A stretch of 58,687 bases of DNA from Herpetosiphonaceae bacterium (GTDB lineage: Bacteria > Chloroflexota > Chloroflexia > Chloroflexales > Kallotenuaceae). Positions 9,124 through 33,553 of this stretch are shown one piece after another. The stretch is taken from NCBI GenBank assembly GCA_036374795.1, contig DASUTC010000267.1, positions 1 to 58,687 on the forward strand, read 5' to 3'. Within the stretch, counting starts at the first letter, position 1, and every line of letters starts with the position of its first letter. The position numbers and the translations under genes were made by a program. The notes beneath the pieces are model-generated. The model searched no databases. It was not told the DNA's origin and saw only the letters and a program-made list of their open reading frames with translations.

Positions 9124-9615
9124 CTACTCGATCAGATCGTACGAGACGAGATAGCGCGTCGGGCCATCCCAGCCTGCCGCCGCACGACTCGGCAGCTCCT
9201 CGCGTAGCCACTGCGGCAGCAGCCGCCCCAGGCCACCCTGGATCGGCAGCCAGCGCGCCTGGATCTTGGCCTCGCGACTCGCCACCTCTGCCGCAGGATC
9301 GACCAGCCGCGCCGCGAAGTACAGCACGACCTCGTGCTGGCGTCGTCCGCGCCGCATGAAAAATCCCTCCGCCACGTACAGCAGTTGGCCGACCTCGACC
9401 GCAGCGCCGAACTCCTCGGCAAGCTCGCGCTTCACACATTCAACCGCTGTCTCGTCGGGCTCCAGCTTCCCGCCGGGCAACGCCTGGTACGGCTGGCCCT
9501 GCCGATCCAGCGCCTCGTGGGTCAGCACGCAGCCGTCGCGCACTACAATCGCCGCGACGCGGTTGAAGAGCCTGGTCGTCGATCCGCCGCTCTCTTGCTT
9601 ACTCACACATCGCAT
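9124..9615 (-). CDS. Nudix hydrolase
   Basis: A protein of 163 residues with a complete Nudix box, GGKLEPDETAVECVKRELAEEFG (about 49-71), matching GX5EX7REUXEEXGU. It hydrolyses nucleoside diphosphates linked to another moiety; the substrate is unknown. It sits between two halves of an ABC-2 permease pair, 18 bases upstream of one and 24 bases downstream of the other, so it is probably in the same transcript. A later start within the first 17 residues is possible. Confidence 0.9.
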   Translation of the reverse strand: MRCVSKQESGGSTTRLFNRVAAIVVRDGCVLTHEALDRQGQPYQALPGGKLEPDETAVECVKRELAEEFGAAVEVGQLLYVAEGFFMRRGRRQHEVVLYFAARLVDPAAEVASREAKIQARWLPIQGGLGRLLPQWLREELPSRAAAGWDGPTRYLVSYDLIE

Positions 9616-9639
9616 CCTTCATCGGTAGAACAACGGCGC

Positions 9640-10434
9640 TTACGCGCCGACCGCGCTGTACTTCTTGATGCCGCGCCGCCAGAGCAGCCGCGTGAGCGCA
9701 TACATCGCCAGAATCCACAGCGCTTGCAGGCCCAGGCTGCGCCATAGCTCGACGCCGTGCAGCCGTCCCATCAGAATTTCGAGCGGCACCGCCAGCTGAT
9801 AGCGGAACGGCAGCCAGTAGGCCGCCTGTCCCACCGCCGCAGGCAGCAGGTCCAGCGGGATCAGATAGCCTGAGAGGATCGTCCACAGCCCAAACCACAG
9901 ATCGAAGACCGCGACCGCCTGGGTGATCCAGAAGGCCAGCAGCCCGTTGATGTACTGGATCAGAAAGCTCAGCAGCCACGCGCCGAACATCGCCGCGAGG
10001 AACGCCAGCAGCGTCGACGGATGGAGATCGTAGCGCACGCCTGTCAGCAGCGCGGCGGTGCCCAGCGTCGGCAGCAGCAGCACCAGGCGCAGGCCTTTGC
10101 TGCCCAGACCCCGCGCCGCCCAGTGGTGGATCGGGTCGAGGGGCCGCAGCAGCATTGTCGAGAACTCGCCCTGGCGAATCTGGTAGTCCATGTCCCACAC
10201 GATCCACACGCCGGTTAACTGTCGCACGAAGATCGCCGCCAGATAGTAGGCGATAAAATCGGTCGGCGTGAACGATCCGACCGGCCCGCCCTCGCCCAGC
10301 GACAGCCACGCCGCAAGCATGATCAGCGGCAGCACGCCCGTCAGCAGCCAGATAATCATCTGCGCGCGATACACGATGACCAGATTCATCTCGCGCCGCA
10401 GCAGCACCCGGTAGATCCGCCAGTATCGCCTCAT
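9640..10434 (-). CDS. ABC-2 type transporter permease (PF06182-like), partner subunit
   Basis: A protein of 264 residues with about six transmembrane segments. It contains WDMDYQIRQGEFSTMLLRPLDPIHHW, the same cytoplasmic signature (x-GxxxxxLLxPLDP) seen in the permease at 8317-9105. The two are therefore paralogous half-transporters likely to heterodimerise in the membrane. It is the first gene of the minus-strand run from 10434 down to 8317. Export of an unknown substrate is inferred from the family. Confidence 0.9.
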   Translation of the reverse strand: MRRYWRIYRVLLRREMNLVIVYRAQMIIWLLTGVLPLIMLAAWLSLGEGGPVGSFTPTDFIAYYLAAIFVRQLTGVWIVWDMDYQIRQGEFSTMLLRPLDPIHHWAARGLGSKGLRLVLLLPTLGTAALLTGVRYDLHPSTLLAFLAAMFGAWLLSFLIQYINGLLAFWITQAVAVFDLWFGLWTILSGYLIPLDLLPAAVGQAAYWLPFRYQLAVPLEILMGRLHGVELWRSLGLQALWILAMYALTRLLWRRGIKKYSAVGA

Positions 10435-10536
10435 ACCATCTGCCCGCCCTCGTTAATCGCCACGGGGATTATAGAGCAGCGCGGTCGGCGTCGCAAACGG
10501 CGGGGCGCGTGAGCGTGCCCGCCTCAGACTCCGCTC

Positions 10537-10650
10537 AACCCTTGTTCTTGGTTCAGGCCCTCACCCCCCGGCCCCCTCTCCCATTGCCATAGGAGCGGGG
10601 GAGGAAATGGTGGGGGTGTCCCCCACACCCCCGGCCTGCGCTGCGCTCGG
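10537..10650. repeat. GC-rich intergenic repeat with perfect hairpin
   Basis: The gap between the divergent permease and ATPase genes holds a GAAC-type fragment followed by C- and G-runs. GTGGGGG (10610-10616) and CCCCCAC (10620-10626) form a 7-bp stem with a 3-base loop. It looks like a dispersed palindromic element rather than a gene terminator. Confidence 0.45.
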
Positions 10651-10845
10651 CGCTTTGTTCTCCTCGTCCTTGACGCCGGGTGTACACTACAAGCAGTGAC
10701 ACTCCCCGGAGCAATCAGATCCTCACGACGTGGAGCGCCGCTCCGCCGGGCATCCTGCGACATATCTTGCGCCTCCGGCCTGCATCAGCCCGGGCGCCAT
10801 GCGCTACCCAGCCTGTTTAACGATAGCACTCAGGAGGAAGAGCCT

Positions 10846-12939
10846 ATGGGCGGGCGTTTGGCAGATCGTCTGAGTGCAGCCCGGCACGATCGGTTTGTAG
10901 GCCGCGCCGCTGAGCTGGCCCTGTTTCGCGACGTGCTGACCGCCGACAGCTTGCCGTTTTGTATTCTGCATGTGTACGGTCCCGGCGGCGTGGGCAAGAC
11001 GACGCTCCTCCAACAGTTCGATCGCCTGTGTCGGCAGGCCGGTATTCTCGTGATCTCGATCGACGGACGCAACGTAGATCCATCGCCGGATGCGTTTCTG
11101 CACGCGCTACGTCTCGCGCTGCGTCTCGATCAGCCCGAGTCGCCGCTTCAGGTGCTGGCAGCCCAGCCGGAGCGCCAGGTGATCATGATCGATACCTACG
11201 AGAAGCTGGCTCCGCTCGACGCCTGGCTACGCGATCACGTTCTGCCCAATCTGCCGGAGCAGGCGCTGATCGTGATCGCTGACCGTAACCCGCCGTCGAT
11301 GGACTGGCGCGCCGATCCCGGCTGGCAGGCGCTGATCCGGGTATTGCCGCTGCGGAACCTCAGCCCCGACGAGAGCCAGCGCTACCTGATGCGGCGGGCC
11401 GTCCCGACGGATCAGCACGACGCGGTCTTGAGCTTTACACACGGCCATCCGCTGGCGCTCTCGCTCGTCGCGGATGTCTTCGCCCAGCGCCACGATATTC
11501 GCTTTCAGCCGGAGGCAGCGCCCGATGTGATCAACACGCTGCTGGAGCATTTCGTCCAGAAAGTGCCGGGGCCTGCTCACCGCACGGCGCTGGAAGCCTG
11601 CGCGCTCGTGCATCTGATGACCGAGACGCTGCTCTCCGAGATGCTGGGCATGCCCGATGCTCATGAGCTGTTCGATTGGCTACGCGGCTTGTCGTTTATC
11701 GAGGCTGGACGACGGGGGATCTTCCCTCACGATCTGGCCCGCGAGGCGCTGACCGCCGACCTGCGCTGGCGTAATCCCGACTGGTATGCCGAGCTGCATC
11801 GTCGCGCACGCGCCTACTACGCCCACAGCTTCCAGCAGGCGGGAGCGCATGAGCAGCAGCGACTCTTGTTCGATTATGTCTTCTTACACCGCGAAAATCC
11901 GGTGCTGCGTCCGTTCTTCGAGTGGCGCGAAAACAGCAGCCTGTTCGCGACAACCGCCGATGCGCGGGAGTGGCCCGCGCTGATCGAGATGGTCGCCCGG
12001 CATGAAGGCTCCGACTCGGCGCGACTGGCCGAGTTCTGGTTTGAGCGCCAGCCCGAAAACCTGATCGTGATCCGCAACGCCGAGCAGCAGCCGGTAGGCT
12101 TCACGCTGCGATTGGCGCTCCACCAGACCACGCCCGACGAGCGCGAGGTCGATCCGGCGACGCGCTCGATCTGGAACTATATCCAGATGCGCGCGCCGCT
12201 GCGCCCCGGCGAGGCCGCGACTCTCTTCCGATTCTGGATGGACCGCGACAGCTACCAGTCGGTTTCGCCGATCCAGAGCTTGCTCGGCGTGCTGAGCGCC
12301 CAGCACTACCTGACGACGCGGAGCCTGGCCCTGACGTTCACCCCGTGTGCCGATCCTGATTTCTGGGAGCCCGTGCTAAGCTACATTGACCTGACACGGC
12401 TGCACGAGGCCGATTTTGTCGTCGATGGACGCTGCTACGGCGTGTACGGTCACGACTGGCGGATCGTGCCGCCGCTGGCCTGGCTTGCGGTGCTGGCTGA
12501 GCGTGAGCTTGCGACCACGCCGCAACTGCCACGACCGCAGAGCGCGCCCACGCTGATCGTGCTGAGCGAGTCCGCGTTTACCGCAGCGGCTCGTCAGGCG
12601 CTGCACCACGTCAGTCAACCGGAGCTGTTGAGCGATAATCCGCTGCTCAAATCGCGGCTGGTCGTCGAGGCGGCGGGCGCTCAGGCCGATCTTCCGGCTC
12701 GTGTCGCCGCGCTGCAAGCGCTGATCAAAGACGCCGCCGAGTTGCTTCAGGCTACGCCGCGCGACGCTAAGTGCTATCGCGCGATCTACCATACGTACCT
12801 GCGCCCCGCCGCTACCCAGGAGCAGGCCGCCGAGCTGCTGGATCTGCCGTTCAGCACCTTTCGCCGTCACCTCAAGACCGGCGTCGCTCGCGTGATCGAG
12901 ATACTCTGGCAGCGCGAGCTGAACGCCGCCCCAAGCTGA
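10846..12939 (+). CDS. NACHT/STAND-like ATPase with C-terminal helix-turn-helix region
   Basis: A protein of 697 residues. Walker A GPGGVGKTT (Lys51) and Walker B VIMIDTYEKL (about 110-119) define a P-loop NTPase, followed by LIVIADRNPP and a winged-helix-like segment, as in STAND signalling ATPases. The middle (about 400-590) has the pattern ...LFRFWMDRDSYQSVSP...FTPCADPDFW, which I cannot assign but which looks like a conserved domain. The last 60 residues (AATQEQAAELLDLPFSTFRRHLKTGVARVIE) resemble a sigma-region-4-like HTH. This suggests an ATP-regulated transcription factor or signalling switch. Start chosen at 10846 with AGGAGG upstream. It is monocistronic. Confidence 0.75.
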   Translation: MGGRLADRLSAARHDRFVGRAAELALFRDVLTADSLPFCILHVYGPGGVGKTTLLQQFDRLCRQAGILVISIDGRNVDPSPDAFLHALRLALRLDQPESPLQVLAAQPERQVIMIDTYEKLAPLDAWLRDHVLPNLPEQALIVIADRNPPSMDWRADPGWQALIRVLPLRNLSPDESQRYLMRRAVPTDQHDAVLSFTHGHPLALSLVADVFAQRHDIRFQPEAAPDVINTLLEHFVQKVPGPAHRTALEACALVHLMTETLLSEMLGMPDAHELFDWLRGLSFIEAGRRGIFPHDLAREALTADLRWRNPDWYAELHRRARAYYAHSFQQAGAHEQQRLLFDYVFLHRENPVLRPFFEWRENSSLFATTADAREWPALIEMVARHEGSDSARLAEFWFERQPENLIVIRNAEQQPVGFTLRLALHQTTPDEREVDPATRSIWNYIQMRAPLRPGEAATLFRFWMDRDSYQSVSPIQSLLGVLSAQHYLTTRSLALTFTPCADPDFWEPVLSYIDLTRLHEADFVVDGRCYGVYGHDWRIVPPLAWLAVLAERELATTPQLPRPQSAPTLIVLSESAFTAAARQALHHVSQPELLSDNPLLKSRLVVEAAGAQADLPARVAALQALIKDAAELLQATPRDAKCYRAIYHTYLRPAATQEQAAELLDLPFSTFRRHLKTGVARVIEILWQRELNAAPS

Positions 12940-12993
12940 GCAAAAAATGAGCATCTTTTGACCTGGAAGCCGAGCAGTTGCCTGCTGCACACT

Positions 12994-13016
12994 ACGACTG
13001 TCATTGCGACAGTCGT
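12994..13016 (+). terminator. intrinsic terminator of the STAND-like ATPase gene
   Basis: ACGACTGTC (12994-13002) pairs with GACAGTCGT (13008-13016) over a 5-base loop, followed by TTGTGTTT. The rest of the 12940-13224 gap contains only a short direct repeat (CCCGCCGATCGCG at about 13034 and 13089). Confidence 0.65.
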
Positions 13017-13224
13017 TTGTGTTTCATGCCACCCCGCCGATCGCGCGTTTCAGATCATCGTAGTCAGGCATACCCGCCCGCTGCCGCCCCGCCGATCGCG
13101 TCCGTCAGCTCGGAATCGTCGTGCTGCCCACCATGGCAGCCGCTGCTCGGCCAGGAGGTGATCACGAACTTATCCATCAGCTCGTCACTGGCGGTAAACC
13201 ACGTTCAGCAAAAGGGTATGCCTT

Positions 13225-14721
13225 ATGCGTAAGCTCGTTAGTATCGTATGTGTGGTGGTAGCGCTGGTTATCGGCGCTACGGGAGCGCTGACCGAGCGCG
13301 TGGGCGCATCCAGCCACCGCGAAGCGCCCTTGATCAGCAACGATCCGCAGGCTGACAACACCGATGTGTATGCGTTTGTCAGCCCCGACCGGCCCGACAC
13401 CGCAACCTTGATCGCCAACTACGTCCCGCTGCAAGAGCCTGCGGGCGGGCCGAACTTCAATAGCTTCGGCGACGACGTGTTGTATGAGATCAAGATCAGC
13501 AACGACATGGATGCGCGGCGCGAAATCTCCTTCCAGTTCCTCTTCCGCACCGAAACCCGCAACAAGAACACGTTTTTGTACAACACCGGCCCGATCAGCG
13601 CGCTGGACGATCCGGACTGGAATATTCGCCAGTTCTATCTTGTCCGGCGCATCGATTACCACAACGGCGACATCAGCAGCACCCGCATCCTGGCATCAAA
13701 CCTGCCGGTGCCGCCGGTCAACGTCGGCCCGCGCTCCACGCCCAACTATCCGGCGCTGGCTGCCGCCGCTGTGCGCGACCTGCCGGGCGGCTACAAGGTC
13801 TTTGCCGGGCAGCGCGACGATCCGTTCTTTGTGGATCTTGGCTCGATCTTCGATCTGGCTGGCCTCCGTCCGTTCAATCCGGCGCATATCATTCCGCTTC
13901 CTGCGAGCGACGGCGTTGACGGTGTCGGCGGCTACAACGTCCACACGATCGCGATCCAGGTGCCGATCACGGAGCTTACCCGCGACGGCAAGGTACCGAC
14001 CGGCCCCAACGATCCGCGCGCGGTGATCGGCGTTCACGCCACCGCCAAGCGGCAGAGCACCCGCGTCCTGCGCTCCGATGGCACGGTTCGCAACAGCGGC
14101 TCGTATGTCCAGGTTTCGCGGCTTGGCAACCCGCTGATCAACGAGGTTGTGATCCCGCTCGGACGCAAGGATTATTGGAACGCCCAGCGTCCGCAGCAGG
14201 ATCAGCAGTTCCTCCAGTATTACACCAGCCCGGAGGTGACAAAGCTGGAAAATCTGCTCTATCCGGCGCTGGATAACGCCGCCGAGAGCAACCGCAATGA
14301 TCTGGTCGCGATCCTGCTCACCGGCGTCAAGATCCCGGCGGGCAAGATCCCAGGCGTGGAAAATCTCAACTTCACCGGCAACCAGAAGGCGGATCTGCTG
14401 CGACTCAACCTTGCCATTCCACCGAGCGACAATCCCAGCCGCCTGGGCGTTCTCGAAGGCGATCTGGCTGGCTTCCCGAATGGCCGCCGCCTGGCCGACG
14501 ACGTGACCGACATCGAGCTACGAGCGCTGGCCGAGGGCTACGGCCCCGTGCTGAACGCTGTGCTGGGGCTGCCCAACCGCGCTCCGAACAACGCGCTCGG
14601 CGATGGCGTCGATGTGAATGATGTGTCATTCCTGGCGACCTTCCCCTACGTTGGCACACCACACCAGGGCTATGAACACATGCATCATGTCGCAATCGGA
14701 GCAAGTCTGAAGGCCGAGTAA
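13225..14721 (+). CDS. DUF4331 family secreted protein
   Basis: A protein of 498 residues. A signal peptide (LVSIVCVVVALVIGATGAL) is followed directly by the DUF4331 hallmark SSHREAPLISNDPQADNTDVYAFVSPD. The remainder (ISFQFLFRTETRNKNTFLYNTG; HMHHVAIGASLKAE at the end) matches this family throughout. Its function is unknown. A TPR protein gene and a Ni/Co-type transporter gene follow on the same strand, an arrangement that suggests a metal- or redox-related surface system. The His cluster near the C terminus (HQGYEHMHH) could bind metal, which is inference. Confidence 0.9.
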   Translation: MRKLVSIVCVVVALVIGATGALTERVGASSHREAPLISNDPQADNTDVYAFVSPDRPDTATLIANYVPLQEPAGGPNFNSFGDDVLYEIKISNDMDARREISFQFLFRTETRNKNTFLYNTGPISALDDPDWNIRQFYLVRRIDYHNGDISSTRILASNLPVPPVNVGPRSTPNYPALAAAAVRDLPGGYKVFAGQRDDPFFVDLGSIFDLAGLRPFNPAHIIPLPASDGVDGVGGYNVHTIAIQVPITELTRDGKVPTGPNDPRAVIGVHATAKRQSTRVLRSDGTVRNSGSYVQVSRLGNPLINEVVIPLGRKDYWNAQRPQQDQQFLQYYTSPEVTKLENLLYPALDNAAESNRNDLVAILLTGVKIPAGKIPGVENLNFTGNQKADLLRLNLAIPPSDNPSRLGVLEGDLAGFPNGRRLADDVTDIELRALAEGYGPVLNAVLGLPNRAPNNALGDGVDVNDVSFLATFPYVGTPHQGYEHMHHVAIGASLKAE

Positions 14722-14730
14722 CGGCTGTGA

Positions 14731-14773
14731 GCGCGGGCTGCGCTGATTCGCTCACAATCGTCGCAGCCCGCGC
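14731..14773 (+). terminator. hairpin between DUF4331 and TPR genes
   Basis: GCGCGGGCTGCG (14731-14742) pairs perfectly with CGCAGCCCGCGC (14762-14773). No T-run follows, so it may attenuate or stabilise rather than stop transcription into the TPR gene. Confidence 0.5.
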
Positions 14774-14802
14774 GATTCATGATCTCAGGCGGAGAAACAA
14801 CG

Positions 14803-16143
14803 ATGCGTAGTTTCCATCTCGATCGTAATCTTCCGTTCGTCGCGCTGGCGCTCCTGGCGCTGGCAGCCGCTCTGGCGCTGCTCCGGCTTGCACAGCCGCT
14901 CGGACCCGCAGCGCTCCTCGGCAACGCGGCGGGACGGCAGCCGCTCAGCCGTACAGAAAGCCAGATTCAGACTTTGCAGAGCCGGATTCGCCGCGCGCCC
15001 GCCAACCCCGACAGCTACGCGCTGCTCGGTCACGCCTATCTTCAGCGCGTCCGCGAAACCGGCGATCCTGGATACTACGGCAAGGCCGAGTCGGTCTTCA
15101 ACGCCGCGCTCAAGCGCGATCCCCGGCATGTCGAGGCGCTGATCGGCAAGGGAACGCTGGCGCTGGCTCGTCACGATTTTCGCGAGGCGCTCTCGCTAGG
15201 CCAGCATGCCCGGTCGCTCAATCCGGCGGTTCCGCGAATCTATGGCGTGATCGGCGACGCGCAGATCGAGCTGGGTCAGTACGAAGCGGCAGTTCAAACG
15301 ATTCAGCAGATGGTCGATCTGCGGCCTGATCTCAGCTCCTACAGCCGGGTTTCGCACCTCCGCGAATTGTACGGCGATCTGCCGGGCGCGATCGAGGCCA
15401 TGCGGCAGGCGGTCGATGCCGGTGGTCCGACCGCTGAAAATACCCAGTGGGTCCGCGTACAGCTTGGCAATCTGTACTTCGCCCAGGGCGATCTCACCGC
15501 CGCCCAGCGAGAGTATCAGCAGGCGCTGGCACGCTTGCCCGCCTACGTCCACGCCCAGGCCGGACTGGCCCGGATTCGCGCCATCCAGGGCCGCTATGCC
15601 GAGGCGATCGAGCTGTACAACGTGGCGACCCAGCGAATGCCGCTGCCGGAGTATCTGATCGCACTGGGCGATGTGTATGCCAAACAGGGCGATCAGCAGC
15701 AGGCGCGGCGGCAGTACGACCTGGTTCTCGCGATCGATCGGCTCTTTAGTGCGAGCGGCGTCAACACCGATCTTGAGCTGGCGCTCTTCTTCGCCGATCA
15801 CACCATCGAGCTACCGACCGCGCTGGCGAAAGCTCGCGCCGCCTATGCAGCCCGGCCCAGCATTCACGCCGCCGATAGCCTGGCCTGGACGCTCTACAGC
15901 ACCGGCAGCTACGCCGAGGCGCAGCACTACGCCAGCGAGTCGCTGCGCCTCGGCACGCACGATCCGCTGAAGCTTTTTCACGCCGGGATGATCGCCCACG
16001 CGCTGGGACAGAACCAGCAGGCGCGGGATTATCTGCAACGAGCCGTGGATCTCAACCCGCACTTTTCGCTGCTCTGGAGCGATCGGGCCATGACCACGCT
16101 CACAGCCTTGGGCGGCCATGTTCCCGCCGAAGGGAGATCATAA
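14803..16143 (+). CDS. TPR-repeat protein, membrane-anchored
   Basis: A protein of 446 residues. An N-terminal hydrophobic segment (FVALALLALAAALALLRLA) acts as an anchor. Tandem tetratricopeptide repeats follow over about 60-440 (for example NPDSYALLGHAYLQ, DPRHVEALIGKGTLALARHDFREAL and AYVHAQAGLARIRAIQGRYAEAIELY). TPRs mediate protein-protein contact, so it may scaffold the DUF4331 protein or the transporter encoded next to it. The ATG at 14803 is preferred over 14779 because GGAG lies upstream and the anchor begins there. The stop overlaps the next ATG by one base (TAATG), indicating translational coupling. Confidence 0.85.
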   Translation: MRSFHLDRNLPFVALALLALAAALALLRLAQPLGPAALLGNAAGRQPLSRTESQIQTLQSRIRRAPANPDSYALLGHAYLQRVRETGDPGYYGKAESVFNAALKRDPRHVEALIGKGTLALARHDFREALSLGQHARSLNPAVPRIYGVIGDAQIELGQYEAAVQTIQQMVDLRPDLSSYSRVSHLRELYGDLPGAIEAMRQAVDAGGPTAENTQWVRVQLGNLYFAQGDLTAAQREYQQALARLPAYVHAQAGLARIRAIQGRYAEAIELYNVATQRMPLPEYLIALGDVYAKQGDQQQARRQYDLVLAIDRLFSASGVNTDLELALFFADHTIELPTALAKARAAYAARPSIHAADSLAWTLYSTGSYAEAQHYASESLRLGTHDPLKLFHAGMIAHALGQNQQARDYLQRAVDLNPHFSLLWSDRAMTTLTALGGHVPAEGRS

Positions 16144-29043: not shown

Positions 29044-29721
29044 CTACACCAGGCCCTCACGGACAGCGCGCACGGCGGCCTCCACCCGCGACGACACACC
29101 GAGCTTCACGTACACTTCAGCCAGATGTTTCTCCACCGTTTTTTCGCTGATCCCCAGCGCAATGCCGATCTCTTGATTGGTCTTGCCCTCCACCACCAAA
29201 CGTAAAACATCCAGCCCGCGCATACTCAAGAGCGGCTGCGCCGGTTCTCCTGAGCCGCGCACCCGCTGATCGAACCTACCGCCCGCAACCCTTGAGCTTA
29301 GCCAGGGCTCGCCCCGCGCCACCGAGCGCACCGCAGCGGAGATCGCCGAAGGATCTTCTTCTTTCAGCAGATAGCCGGTCGCGCCTGCGTCCATGAACGT
29401 CTGCACATAGTCCAACTCGGCGTAGGCCGTGAGGATCAGAATGTTGGGCGGTACCGGCAGCGTCCGTGCCCGGCGCACCACATCGACCGCGCGCAGGCCG
29501 GGCATGTTCAGATCCGTCACCAGCACATCCGGCTGGATCATCGACACCAGATGCAGCGCGACATTGCCGTTCTCGGCAGTGCCCAGCACCTCGATATCAG
29601 GCTGTCGCGCCAGCTCGTGGACAATCCCGTTGCGCACAACCGGATGATCGTCCGCTACGACGACGCGAATGACCCGCTGCTGCACCATCGAGCTACTCGA
29701 CGGCTGCCACTCTTCGATCAT
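29044..29721 (-). CDS. ComA-like LuxR/NarL-family response regulator
   Basis: A protein of 225 residues. The receiver domain has the acidic pair ADDH (24-26) and phospho-acceptor Asp70 (VLVTDLNMPG). A C-terminal LuxR HTH follows (VLRLVVEGKTNQEIGIALGISEKTVEKHLAEVYVKLGV). It is the expected DNA-binding output of the kinase encoded just upstream, whose stop it overlaps by 29 bases when started at 29721. I chose 29721 because AAAGGA precedes it; 29739, 29730 or 29688 are alternatives. By family it should activate transcription after phosphorylation; likely targets are this operon and perhaps neighbouring exoenzyme genes (inference). Confidence 0.9.
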   Translation of the reverse strand: MIEEWQPSSSSMVQQRVIRVVVADDHPVVRNGIVHELARQPDIEVLGTAENGNVALHLVSMIQPDVLVTDLNMPGLRAVDVVRRARTLPVPPNILILTAYAELDYVQTFMDAGATGYLLKEEDPSAISAAVRSVARGEPWLSSRVAGGRFDQRVRGSGEPAQPLLSMRGLDVLRLVVEGKTNQEIGIALGISEKTVEKHLAEVYVKLGVSSRVEAAVRAVREGLV

Positions 29722-32140
29722 GTACGGCATCCTTTCCATGTACCTGACGCGCGGCTGATGGGAGCGGCACCCAGACTCGTACCGTCGTCCCCTGTCCCGG
29801 CGCGGACATTACTTCGAGTGTGCCCTGCACCAGCTCCAGACGTTCGCGCAGCCCAATCAGACCAAAATGTTGTTCATCAAGCAATCGCTCCAAATGGCCC
29901 GGCACCCGGAAGCCACGGCCATCATCGGCGATCGACAGCCATACCGCCTCCTCGCCAAGCGCCAGGCAAATCTCAACATGGCTCGCCACCGCGTGCTTCT
30001 GCACGTTGCTCAGCGCCTCCTGTACCACCCGGAAGAGACACAGCGCTACCTCGTCAGGGAGCGGCTGCGCTTCGTCGCCTTGAACGAGCAAGCGAATCGA
30101 GAACGGCGCGTGCTGCTGCACGGCCCGGATGCGAAACCGAATTGCTGCCACCAGCCCCAGGCTATCTAGCGCAGGCGGTCGCAGGTCCGCGCATAAGCGG
30201 CGCACATCCCCGACGATCTGCCGCACATGCTCCTGCAAAGGCGCGAGGTACTGGCTATGCTCCTGTGGCATGATCGACCGTAGCTCGGCCAGGTGATAGT
30301 TCAGCGCGATCAGCTCTTGAATCACCTCATCGTGTAGCTCGCGCGCCATATGGCTGCGCTCCGCCTCGCGCACCCGTAAAAGCTGCTGGTGGACGCGCTC
30401 GCTATCCAGCGCTCGCTGGCGCAGCTCGACGATCAGCTGCACGTTCTGCACGGCTATGCTGGCTTGTCGCGCGATGGTCTGCAAGATTTCGCGATCGGTT
30501 ACGTCCAGGGTATAGCTGCCGCGCTTGGGACCTAACACGAACAGCCCGACCAGCCGATCTGTCGCGACCAGCGGCAGCCACAACTGGGTCTTAGCACAAT
30601 CCAGCATACACCGATCCGCCGAAGCCAGATGTCTGTCGGTCAGCAGCGAGCGCAAGGTGGCGCTATCTACAGGGTGCTGATGCTGGCGAAAAAACTCGAT
30701 GATCTGGCTCCCATCAGACGGCCAGGCCGTACCGATCTCGTGCTCGGCGCAGGCCGTGCCGGAGATCACCGTTGTGCGTAGCGCGCCGCTATGCTCGAAT
30801 ACCAGCAGGCTGGCCCACTCAAGCTGCATCACCGTCTGGACGGCCTCGCACAAGTTTTGCGCCAGCGTTGTGCTGTTCGTCACCTGCTCGAACGACTGGC
30901 TCACGCTTTGCACGGCGGAGCGGTAATCGTACCAGCCGCCATAGAGCAGCCGGTCGACGATCCGCTGAAGGCTGCGATGGGTCGGCCCGACCGTCGCCGC
31001 CAGGAGCATGGCGATCACAAACGTAATCAGTTGGTCGCGCCAGATGCTCAGCGGCAGCAGCGGCAGCAGCACGGCGTACAGCGTCAGGTACATTGCGCCC
31101 AGCAGGGTGATCACCAGGATCACGGCAGCTCCCCGGCTGACATTCCGATCGAGGTGCATCAGCCGGTAGCGGAAGATCGCATAGCCGTACGTCAGCGGCA
31201 GCAGCAGCAGAAACAGAAACGCCAGCTCATACGGCAGTAGCGGCTGTCCCAGCAGCGCGCTCGGCAGCAGCGACAGCATCAGCAGCGGCAAGAAGGCTAC
31301 CGCTCCGCCGACGGCTACCACGCCGATATGTCGCTGGGTCATCGGCGAGGCAGCGCGCCGGTAGGTCTGCACGAGCACCAGCACCATCCCCAGCAGACAC
31401 CCGGCCAGCCACAGCAGGCGTAAGGTGTAGAGCAGCGGCACTTCCGCCCGCAGCACAACCGGATCGCCGAGCAGCTCTGGCAGACTCCCCACGATCGCGA
31501 TGCCGCACAGGATCGGCCATAGCCAGCGCGCAGCACGCCGAAAGAGATACGTTGGAAAATAAAGGTGAAAGAGGATTGCCAGCGGGCCGAACCACCACAT
31601 CAGCACGCCGAACAGCCGGGCCGTCCATAGTGGACCCATCCCCGATACCGAGCCGATCGTCAGCATCAGGCTGGTGACTTGCCCGAAGACGAATACCAGC
31701 CAGCGCTGCCGCCCCTGCGGCGAAAACGCTACCACAAGCACGCTGAGCAGCCAGAAGGGCAGCGCGATCAAGAAGGGCATCAGATCGCGCACGAAGATCG
31801 GCAGCGGCGGCGCGACCAGGCTGACCAGCACAATATGGCGCGCGCCGTCCCGCTCGATCGCGAACTGCAAGCTGTCGCCGACCCGTTTCATCGGTAGGCG
31901 CCGGATCTCCCAGAGCGGCACGTCGTTGATCGCCAGGATCCGATCGCCCGGCAGCACCCAGCCAGCCGCCGGTCCCCGTGGATCGACAACCTCGACGATT
32001 CCGCCCGGCTCAGCCCAGGTTACGCCTGTGTAAGGAAAGGGCGTAAACTGCCACACCACCCATGCGCTCAGGAGCAATGTCGCTAATGCCAGTGTAAACG
32101 GAGCAACCATGCTCCAATATTGGATGCGCAAGTGTTTCAT
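29693..32140 (-). CDS. ComP-like sensor histidine kinase: TM, PDZ, polytopic membrane region, GAF, HisKA_3, HATPase
   Basis: A protein of 815 residues. A first TM (about 13-31) is followed by a PDZ-like extracytoplasmic domain (about 40-108: DPRGPAAGWVLPGDRILAINDVPLWEI). About eight more TM helices run to residue 385. A GAF domain (about 420-575) follows, then a HisKA_3 dimerisation helix with phospho-acceptor His603 (ARELHDEVIQELIALNYHL) and an HATPase_c domain (VVQEALSNVQKHA; IADDGRGFRVPG; GLIGLRERLELV). The many-helix sensor in this HisKA_3 class resembles ComP, the receptor of prenylated ComX. The GAF domain is extra compared with Bacillus ComP. Its ATG overlaps the ComQ-like stop (ATGA). 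Confidence 0.92.
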   Translation of the reverse strand: MKHLRIQYWSMVAPFTLALATLLLSAWVVWQFTPFPYTGVTWAEPGGIVEVVDPRGPAAGWVLPGDRILAINDVPLWEIRRLPMKRVGDSLQFAIERDGARHIVLVSLVAPPLPIFVRDLMPFLIALPFWLLSVLVVAFSPQGRQRWLVFVFGQVTSLMLTIGSVSGMGPLWTARLFGVLMWWFGPLAILFHLYFPTYLFRRAARWLWPILCGIAIVGSLPELLGDPVVLRAEVPLLYTLRLLWLAGCLLGMVLVLVQTYRRAASPMTQRHIGVVAVGGAVAFLPLLMLSLLPSALLGQPLLPYELAFLFLLLLPLTYGYAIFRYRLMHLDRNVSRGAAVILVITLLGAMYLTLYAVLLPLLPLSIWRDQLITFVIAMLLAATVGPTHRSLQRIVDRLLYGGWYDYRSAVQSVSQSFEQVTNSTTLAQNLCEAVQTVMQLEWASLLVFEHSGALRTTVISGTACAEHEIGTAWPSDGSQIIEFFRQHQHPVDSATLRSLLTDRHLASADRCMLDCAKTQLWLPLVATDRLVGLFVLGPKRGSYTLDVTDREILQTIARQASIAVQNVQLIVELRQRALDSERVHQQLLRVREAERSHMARELHDEVIQELIALNYHLAELRSIMPQEHSQYLAPLQEHVRQIVGDVRRLCADLRPPALDSLGLVAAIRFRIRAVQQHAPFSIRLLVQGDEAQPLPDEVALCLFRVVQEALSNVQKHAVASHVEICLALGEEAVWLSIADDGRGFRVPGHLERLLDEQHFGLIGLRERLELVQGTLEVMSAPGQGTTVRVWVPLPSAARQVHGKDAVHDRRVAAVE

Positions 32141-33096
32141 AGGTCTTTGAGCGGTGTGTATGCATCCAGCAGCCGCAGCAATCCATCGCTGGCTGCCGAA
32201 CGTGGCACAGCCTGTAGCAGCGCCGCATGGGCCTGCCGGTGTAGCCGCCGCGCCTCCGTCGTAAGGTAGAGGATCGCTCCTGCCGCCACGATCTGTGATC
32301 GCGCTTCCGCCTCAGCTCCCGAATCCGTGCCGGTCGCGCGCAGCAGCCGGTGTAGCCGCTCGCGTTCGGCGGCGGGTAAGACGCTCATCGCATACGCCAC
32401 GGGCAGCGTCCAGCGGTCGCCCGCCAGGAGATCGCTCGCCTGCCCGTGCTTCGCCCAGAGGCCGTCGATGTCGTCGCCAATCTGGATCAGCACGCCCAGC
32501 GTCTGCCCAAACTCGCTGAGCTGATCGACCACGCCGCGCTCGGCGTTTGCCAGACGAGCGCCGGAGCGGCACGCCAGGCCAAACAACGCGCCCGACTTCG
32601 CCTGCGCGATCCGCCAGCGCTGCTCCAGCGTCGGCTGTTGAAGCGTCAGGTCGGCGTGCTGCCCGGCGGTCAGGTCCAGCAGCGTCTGAAAAAAATCCAG
32701 CCGGACCGCTTGAGCTGTATCAGCGCCGACGCCTGTCTGTTCCAGATTGCTCAGCATCGCGCCCGCGCTGGCAAGCAGGCCAGTCGAAATATTAATCGCT
32801 GGCCCCGCTCCCCACTGCGCCCAGGGCGCGTCGCGCACATCGCCATCTTCAACACTATCGAGCATATAGAGCGCGGTGTACAGTATCTTCCAGGCAAGTG
32901 CAAAGCGCTCAGTTCGCCGCCGATCGCCGCCGGTCGCCAGGCAACACAGCTCAGCAAGGTCGCTCAACGATCCGGAAGGCTGCTGATCCGATGATCGATC
33001 CTCGATCACCGGCTGGAGCGTTGCGCGTATGACAGACAGATAGGCCGCGTCGATTTCCGCCGCAGCCCACAAGGCTTCTAAAGCATCCGCTATCAC
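32137..33096 (-). CDS. ComQ-like class-1 prenyl synthase / isoprenyl transferase
   Basis: A protein of 319 residues with a trans-isoprenyl diphosphate synthase fold. The first Asp motif is short and degenerate, LDSVEDGD (Asp80, Asp84, Asp86), unlike the DDxxD of true polyprenyl synthases and like the reduced motif of ComQ enzymes. GQHADL (146-151) and KSGALFGLACRSGARLA (167-183) follow. The second motif is intact, QIGDDIDGLW (Asp209, Asp210, Asp212), followed by DLLAGDRWTLP. ComQ attaches geranyl or farnesyl to a Trp of the pre-pheromone ComX. The start is GTG at 33096, 12 bases after the small peptide gene. A lipid-producing prenyl synthase is the alternative, but the flanking peptide, kinase and regulator genes argue for pheromone modification. 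Confidence 0.75.
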   Translation of the reverse strand: MIADALEALWAAAEIDAAYLSVIRATLQPVIEDRSSDQQPSGSLSDLAELCCLATGGDRRRTERFALAWKILYTALYMLDSVEDGDVRDAPWAQWGAGPAINISTGLLASAGAMLSNLEQTGVGADTAQAVRLDFFQTLLDLTAGQHADLTLQQPTLEQRWRIAQAKSGALFGLACRSGARLANAERGVVDQLSEFGQTLGVLIQIGDDIDGLWAKHGQASDLLAGDRWTLPVAYAMSVLPAAERERLHRLLRATGTDSGAEAEARSQIVAAGAILYLTTEARRLHRQAHAALLQAVPRSAASDGLLRLLDAYTPLKDL

Positions 33097-33108
33097 GTTA
33101 ATGTACGA

Positions 33109-33336
33109 CTACGCTTTAAGCTGGGGGGTGTACCACTGCCACGCCTCTGGACTGGTATCGAGCGAGCATAGCTGGTGTATACGTGAGCGATCACCGAGCA
33201 TGGCAAGGACCGTAGCAGCGGCTTCGTCGTCCAGCACCAAGCCAGAGGCCATCATCGCTGCCTGTGGCTCCTGAACAAACTGAGCGGCGAAGGATGGGTC
33301 GGAGGCGATGCGGTACACAAGATGGGCCAGGGTCAT
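33109..33336 (-). CDS. candidate ComX-like pheromone precursor peptide
   Basis: A predicted peptide of 75 residues. The N-terminal part, LVYRIASDPSFAAQFVQEPQ (6-25) then AAMMASGLVLDDEAAATVLAML, reads like a helical leader and has the same layout as ComX leaders (hydrophobic helix, P/D-E segment, G-hydrophobic-D, second helix). The tail contains Cys57, Trp66 and Trp68 (SPEAWQWYTPQLKA); a tail Trp is the residue prenylated in ComX. The start at 33336 has a partial AGGTG site; an in-frame start at 33396 would add 20 residues. It is the first gene of the tight four-gene operon. The pheromone role rests on context and layout, not on sequence identity; a RiPP-type leader peptide is the nearest alternative. 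Confidence 0.6.
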   Translation of the reverse strand: MTLAHLVYRIASDPSFAAQFVQEPQAAMMASGLVLDDEAAATVLAMLGDRSRIHQLCSLDTSPEAWQWYTPQLKA

Positions 33337-33380
33337 ATCACACCTGCGAGCTTGGAGGGCGCTCGCCACCCACATACAGG

Positions 33381-33461
33381 TTAACCAGAAAAACACCGGT
33401 TGTGTTCTGCTGCTCGTGTTAACCGTTGGGAACGGAAGTGATCAACGAATAACCATTAACC
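33381..33461 (-). promoter_or_regulatory. three TTAACC repeats in the leader of the pheromone operon
   Basis: TTAACC occurs at 33381-33386, 33419-33424 and 33456-33461, spaced 38 and 37 bases apart, between the predicted transcription start and the peptide ATG. The first is inside the palindrome GGTTAACC. Such phased copies could bind a regulator. Confidence 0.35.
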
Positions 33462-33524
33462 ATCGACGTACCTTAGGGGAACACCACATACGATGGTGCA
33501 TGGATCATCCGGGCCGACACGTTC

Positions 33525-33553
33525 ATTATAGAGTATCGAAATGTTTAACACAA
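33525..33553 (-). promoter_or_regulatory. sigma70-type promoter of the ComQXPA-like operon
   Basis: On the minus strand TTGTGT (complement of 33548-33553), a 17-base spacer and a perfect TATAAT (complement of 33525-33530). The leader to the peptide start at 33336 would be about 180 bases. Beyond it, up to about 34120, I see no convincing gene. Confidence 0.65.

Follow-up and report, generated by a model that had tools for sequence, protein, structure and literature searches.

ComQ, the prenylating enzyme of the Bacillus ComQXPA quorum-sensing system, modifies an internal Trp residue. A 2014 census by Dogsa et al. found comQXPA-like loci in Firmicutes only (PMC4008528), in line with the original prediction made from the present DNA that no such system had been described in Chloroflexota. 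None was found in the open-licence literature, where the one paper retrieved on ComQ/ComX and Chloroflexi reports a kinase-regulator pair alone (PMC8895600), and an earlier description elsewhere is possible. The same prediction had named ComQXPA as the only well-known system with such a gene content; the PalX/PalQ/PalP cluster of Paenibacillus alvei is relevant as well. This nearest experimental precedent brings together a Trp-tailed precursor with an NHLP leader, a ComQ-type prenyltransferase and a kinase, and PalQ accepts Trp solely as the last residue (PMC10853753). A further point of reference is the indole prenyltransferase Ord1 (PDB 9v4g-9v4j), which farnesylates Trp and uses free Trp as a substrate (PMC13290415).

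The operon described herein was found in a window of 58,687 nucleotides from a Herpetosiphonaceae bacterium of the phylum Chloroflexota, and consists of four neighbouring genes, X, Q, P and A, all located on the minus strand and preceded by one promoter. X (33109..33336; ATG start, TAG stop) encodes a 75-amino acid precursor peptide; an upstream-extended version of its frame opens with GTG. Q (32137..33096; GTG start) encodes a 319-residue enzyme of the trans-isoprenyl synthase fold (PF00348, 64 bits) and is the proposed Trp prenyltransferase, P (29693..32140) an 815-residue sensor kinase, and A (29044..29721) a response regulator made of REC and LuxR-type (GerE) domains. The tight coupling and single promoter originally reported are all in place, X and Q being separated by 12 bases, Q and P overlapping by ATGA, and the overlap of P and A amounting to 29 bases for an A start at position 29721. 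The sigma-70-type promoter, recognised by sequence match as TTGTGT-N17-TATAAT (33525..33553, minus strand), is the single such match within the window and had none in shuffles (0 matches), and is not a chance expectation. Neither an exporter nor a protease gene could be recognised next to the operon, and a PADLOC search for defence systems yielded no match to X, Q or P. The operon is real and recurrent, and probably encodes a peptide-pheromone system acting through a Trp-prenylated peptide. Like Bacillus ComQXPA, it combines at close spacing a Trp peptide, a ComQ-group enzyme devoid of RRG, a HisKA_3-type kinase with a PDZ/multi-transmembrane (TM) sensor and a LuxR-type regulator. It differs from ComQXPA in its precursor, NHLP-like instead of ComX, in its Chloroflexota host and, as noted from the outset, in the GAF domain of its kinase and in its peptide-first order (X-Q-P-A, as opposed to Q-X-P-A in the Bacillus-type references, where Q precedes X).

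The small peptide with a tail Trp that had been predicted was confirmed in X, whose 75 residues comprise an NHLP-like leader (approximately residues 1-46) and a C-terminal tail, WQWYTPQLKA, with Trp at positions 66 and 68. X is no member of the ComX family: the corresponding profile (PF05952) failed to match the window X and, among seven relatives, matched a single one with an E-value of no better than 0.11. X instead matched the Os1348 NHLP-clan domain NF038399 with 28.3 bits (E 1.4e-6), under the curated cut-off of 40, and, more weakly, TIGR04509. A second group of X peptides, originating from distant genomes, matched NF038399 in seven out of seven cases (best E 2.7e-9). Comparison by hhalign showed the leaders of this group to be homologous to those of the first, distant group (96.1%, E 3e-9). 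Based on these NHLP-model matches and on the homology of the leaders, X looks like a RiPP-type precursor with a helical leader followed by a short Trp-bearing tail. With an NHLP-like leader and no ComX match, the operon is thus not a member of the ComQXPA family in the strict sense; the ComQXPA-like unit first proposed is supported by the gene content, the relation of Q to ComQ and that of the P sensor to ComP.

The NHLP-like leader of X makes PalX/PalQ/PalP as close a relative of the operon as ComQXPA. In the Pal cluster, the precursor is of the NHLP type and carries a C-terminal Trp, its Trp prenyltransferase is trans-isoprenyl-synthase-like, and a histidine kinase is encoded in the same place. 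PalQ requires Trp at the very end, whereas Trp68 of the window X is the eighth residue from the end, which speaks against the prenylation proposed here, although ComQ does act on an internal Trp; in some other X peptides, Trp is nearly last (GGWF, AGWL). The operon further includes a LuxR regulator, none being listed for the three-gene Pal cluster, and belongs to another phylum (Chloroflexota versus Paenibacillus); sensing by PalP was not seen demonstrated in the accessible text of PMC10853753.

A syntenic X-Q-P-A operon is present in a genome of the same genus (JAFAYS01, contig JAFAYS010000127), which supports the original assignment of the host to Chloroflexota. In both settings, the operon has MarR-like and amylase-like genes on its upstream side and a glgC-like gene on its downstream side. 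The promoter hexamers and their N17 spacing recur at the orthologous locus (L058). The two X peptides are of equal length and 53% identical, with identical residues 1-20 and a conserved W-Y-S/T-P motif in the tail (WYTP and WYSP, respectively). Relative to the ortholog, dN/dS was highest for X (0.38), followed by Q (0.26), P (0.23) and A (0.18); these values are rough since dS is near 1. The X frame, whose lack of conservation in relatives had been named as a finding that would speak against the prediction, is thus kept in the ortholog and is under purifying selection. X is the fastest-changing gene of the four, as pheromone genes typically are. Three paralogous loci were found in the host genome besides that of the window. 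One of them (contig C158) repeats the X-Q-P-A order, and in the two others X and Q are fused in frame into one open frame: on contig C112 (L007:9510-10895), the fusion is accompanied by a solo REC protein and a divergent P-A pair; on contig C135 (L008:7562-8842), there is no kinase nearby. The kinases of the window (contig C267), C112 and C158 align over their full length. Trp68 (codon 33133..33135, minus strand), the proposed prenylation site, is kept in the ortholog and paralogs, and is one of four invariant columns in an alignment of four X sequences (A3). Together, the ortholog, the paralogs and the upstream-ORF control presented below rule out that X is a chance small ORF. A polyketide-synthase-like (ketosynthase) frame, possibly a regulatory target, is located a few kb from the C112 copy (the two together at L007:1-1805 and 9510-14893). 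Additional NHLP-type (Os1348) peptide matches were noted in the host at C176:4793-4933 and C60:5943-6125; neither contig yielded a polyprenyl synthase.

In the window and in L058 alike, the X stop (TAG in the window) and the start of Q share one reading frame, such that stop loss would yield an X-Q fusion. When the C135 fusion was predicted as a single chain (pTM 0.87), the leader was modeled with a pLDDT of ~93 and the Trp tail with ~57-67, which fits a leader held on Q and a mobile tail. The C112 and C135 fusions and the in-frame arrangement of the window and L058 could also be taken to mean that Q is a degenerate pseudo-enzyme forming with X an intracellular pair that tunes the kinase, the fusions being the natural form and nothing being secreted. 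We regard this as highly improbable, given that an alignment of Q sequences (A12) shows one lysine and two Asp residues of the first motif to be invariant and that X is a separate gene except in these two fusions.

That Q is a ComQ-like synthase, as originally proposed, was supported both by profile comparison with ComQ (99.8%, E 3.5e-28), where any protein of the fold would align somewhat, and by a tree of 47 proteins in which 17 housekeeping synthases split off at 100/100 with all Q and four ComQ proteins on the opposite side. ComQ references for both analyses were taken from annotated plasmid records. Forcing the window Q among the housekeeping synthases, the placement that would have weighed against the prediction, was rejected (p-AU 6.8e-12). 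The tree, the AU test and the absence of the RRG pair thus rule out that Q is a housekeeping polyprenyl diphosphate synthase; the host genome encodes two clear representatives of the latter in addition to four weaker, Q-type proteins. ComQ was placed inside the Chloroflexota Q rows, with the window Q outside the ComQ subclade, and a Q clade excluding ComQ was weakly rejected (p-AU 0.031), a mere hint since several branches are long. In all housekeeping rows, an arginine pair (RRG/RRH) comes after the first Asp motif. This pair is absent in Q and ComQ, both of which mostly show a KSG-like sequence where housekeeping synthases have KTA. In the window Q, the first Asp motif (FARM), noticed earlier as degenerate, reads DSVED without the RRG pair, and the second, in the SARM region, QIGDDIDGLW, is DDIDG (DDxxG) and not DDxxD, so that its earlier description as intact was too strong. 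Two candidate markers were discarded. The Gln preceding the second motif, a proposed indole-NH reader considered as a marker of Trp prenyltransferases, is non-discriminating since housekeeping synthases have it too, and the lack of the third Asp in the second motif is shared by many Chloroflexota housekeeping rows, which read DDxLG.

Among PDB entries, the best sequence match of Q was Ord1, for which we know of no peptide or kinase partner. Ord1 shares the fold of Q and, unlike Q, acts on free Trp and retains the RR pair; loss of this pair is thus not required for indole prenylation. The best NCBIfam match of Q was to NF041169 (Family 2 encapsulin cargo polyprenyl transferase), with 106 bits, far under the cut-off of 450, and no encapsulin gene was recognised beside the operon. 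A plasmid search for Q relatives returned Acaryochloris and Streptomyces only, with no matches when the Q protein of locus L122 was used as the query; the Acaryochloris marina plasmid (L072:4333-5280) carries a Q-like polyprenyl synthase devoid of the RRG pair, with no adjoining kinase annotated. The trans-isoprenyl synthase fold of Q, its retention of most Asp residues and the activity of Ord1 on free Trp (PMC13290415) would also suit an enzyme that makes a free isoprenoid, whether an allylic diphosphate or a prenylated small molecule, sensed by P, X then being a binding or regulatory protein instead of a substrate. This reading is improbable in our opinion, since Q lacks the RRG arginines and groups with ComQ, and since a near-terminal Trp is recurrent in the upstream peptides.

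Domain searches bore out the prediction of a polytopic HisKA_3 kinase with PDZ-like and GAF domains and of a LuxR-type regulator (REC and GerE in A). P comprises, in order, TM1, a PDZ-like domain (residues ~40-107), approximately eight further TM helices, GAF, HisKA_3 and HATPase_c; HisKA_3, HATPase_c and GAF_3 exceeded their cut-offs and PDZ_6 scored 25.7 bits for a cut-off of 27. The sensor part of P matched the ComP sensor (96.6%, E 6.7e-10), whereas an unrelated membrane kinase used as a control gave 0.1% both times. The PDZ-like domain does not set P apart from ComP, since Anoxybacillus ComP yields a near-threshold match of its own to PF00595 (21.9 bits, cut-off 23.2). In Foldseek comparisons, the P sensor produced weak matches to GPCR-type helical bundles. 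Its PDZ part weakly resembles DegS-type peptide-binding PDZ domains (E 0.006), a type of domain that binds C-terminal peptide tails; this hints that P may read the C-terminus of a peptide, a guess from fold alone.

The search for the same four-gene order in relatives, suggested along with the original prediction, was successful beyond the same-genus genome, as profile searches and fetched neighborhoods revealed X/Q/P or X/Q/P/A loci in other Chloroflexota. One genome (G093) carries two paralogous loci (L060 and L061), in each of which regulator-like and MFS-like genes come after X-Q-P, with kinase and regulator frames that appear split in raw ORF lists; another (G051) has one locus with the X/Q/P set; and a variant in G084 (L066) consists of a regulator, an X ending in MDSVWVSGR, Q, a 973-residue kinase, a GNAT-like protein and an ABC transporter pair. 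Named records with the set are THP_Bin_29, Anaerolineaceae UBA9135, the almost identical SKS3.bin85, and Longilinea arvoryzae KOME-1. In three Anaerolineaceae loci (L075, L076 and L077), X-Q-P-A is flanked by HTH/helicase-like and serine-recombinase-like genes, as if borne on a mobile element. In genus g102 (L114, L116, L117 and L122), each genome is a single contig of 1.75-2.1 Mb and the X peptides end in GGWF, AGWF or AGWL.

The PDZ/multi-TM sensor was detected in 37 of 400 genomes sampled across Chloroflexota. A Q-profile ORF adjoins the kinase in 17 of the 40 sensor-kinase loci fetched, including one seemingly interrupted (L117), one divergent (L149) and one weak (L125) case. Kinases without the synthase, whose occurrence in relatives had been expected to count against the prediction, were thus seen in part (23/40); this sensor type is not tied to the proposed chemistry, and the sensor domain was rejected as a marker of the system. 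In most Q-bearing loci, a small ORF lies upstream and carries a Trp at or near its end (GGWF, AGWF, AGWL, LFWL, LGWWA, DWWWS, EAGWI, SQWF). Such ORFs, defined as 40-125 residues long with Trp within the last 12, precede 23 of 26 Q genes compared to 6 of 32 housekeeping synthases and 61 of 239 other genes. This count serves as a fair, if rough, control, because the ORF differs from the assigned X in four positives (L059, L061, L075 and L138) and because Trp is slightly further from the end in the assigned X of L009, L059, L060 and L061. The GNAT-like and ABC transporter genes of L066, the MFS-like gene following L060 and L061, and the NHLP-type leader, a typical feature of RiPP natural products, would agree with a secreted bioactive lipopeptide, prenylated by Q, whose production P-A would induce or sense within the producing cell, instead of being part of a dedicated quorum-sensing system. 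The ComP-like sensor of P and the composition of most loci, where X/Q was seen together with a kinase but with no further genes for biosynthesis, export or immunity, render this alternative unlikely, if less so than the two considered above.

In the peptide-pheromone reading that we favor, the X precursor would dock on Q via its NHLP-like leader, and the first Asp motif of Q would take up an allylic diphosphate (probably that of geranyl or farnesyl), the prenyl chain of which would be moved onto a Trp near the C-terminus of X, Trp68 in the window. The tail would then be cleaved and exit the cell, where the PDZ/multi-TM part of P may sense the lipidated peptide. P would in turn phosphorylate A, a putative LuxR-type activator whose targets probably include the operon itself. 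The position of ComQ inside the Chloroflexota Q rows raises the more tentative possibility, which we hold to be rather doubtful, that Chloroflexota harbor an old and diverse pool of NHLP-leader Trp-prenyl peptide signaling systems, including one-polypeptide precursor-prenyltransferase forms, from or beside which Bacillus ComQXPA arose.

Longilinea arvoryzae KOME-1, a named strain, carries a copy that lends itself to testing. If the peptide-pheromone reading is true, the Q proteins would add to the peptide prenyltransferases known so far, in some cases as natural fusions of precursor and enzyme. Lipidated-peptide quorum sensing would then extend beyond Firmicutes into a phylum for which no pheromone system was found described, and the ComQXPA and PalXQ lines would merge into one wider NHLP-leader family.
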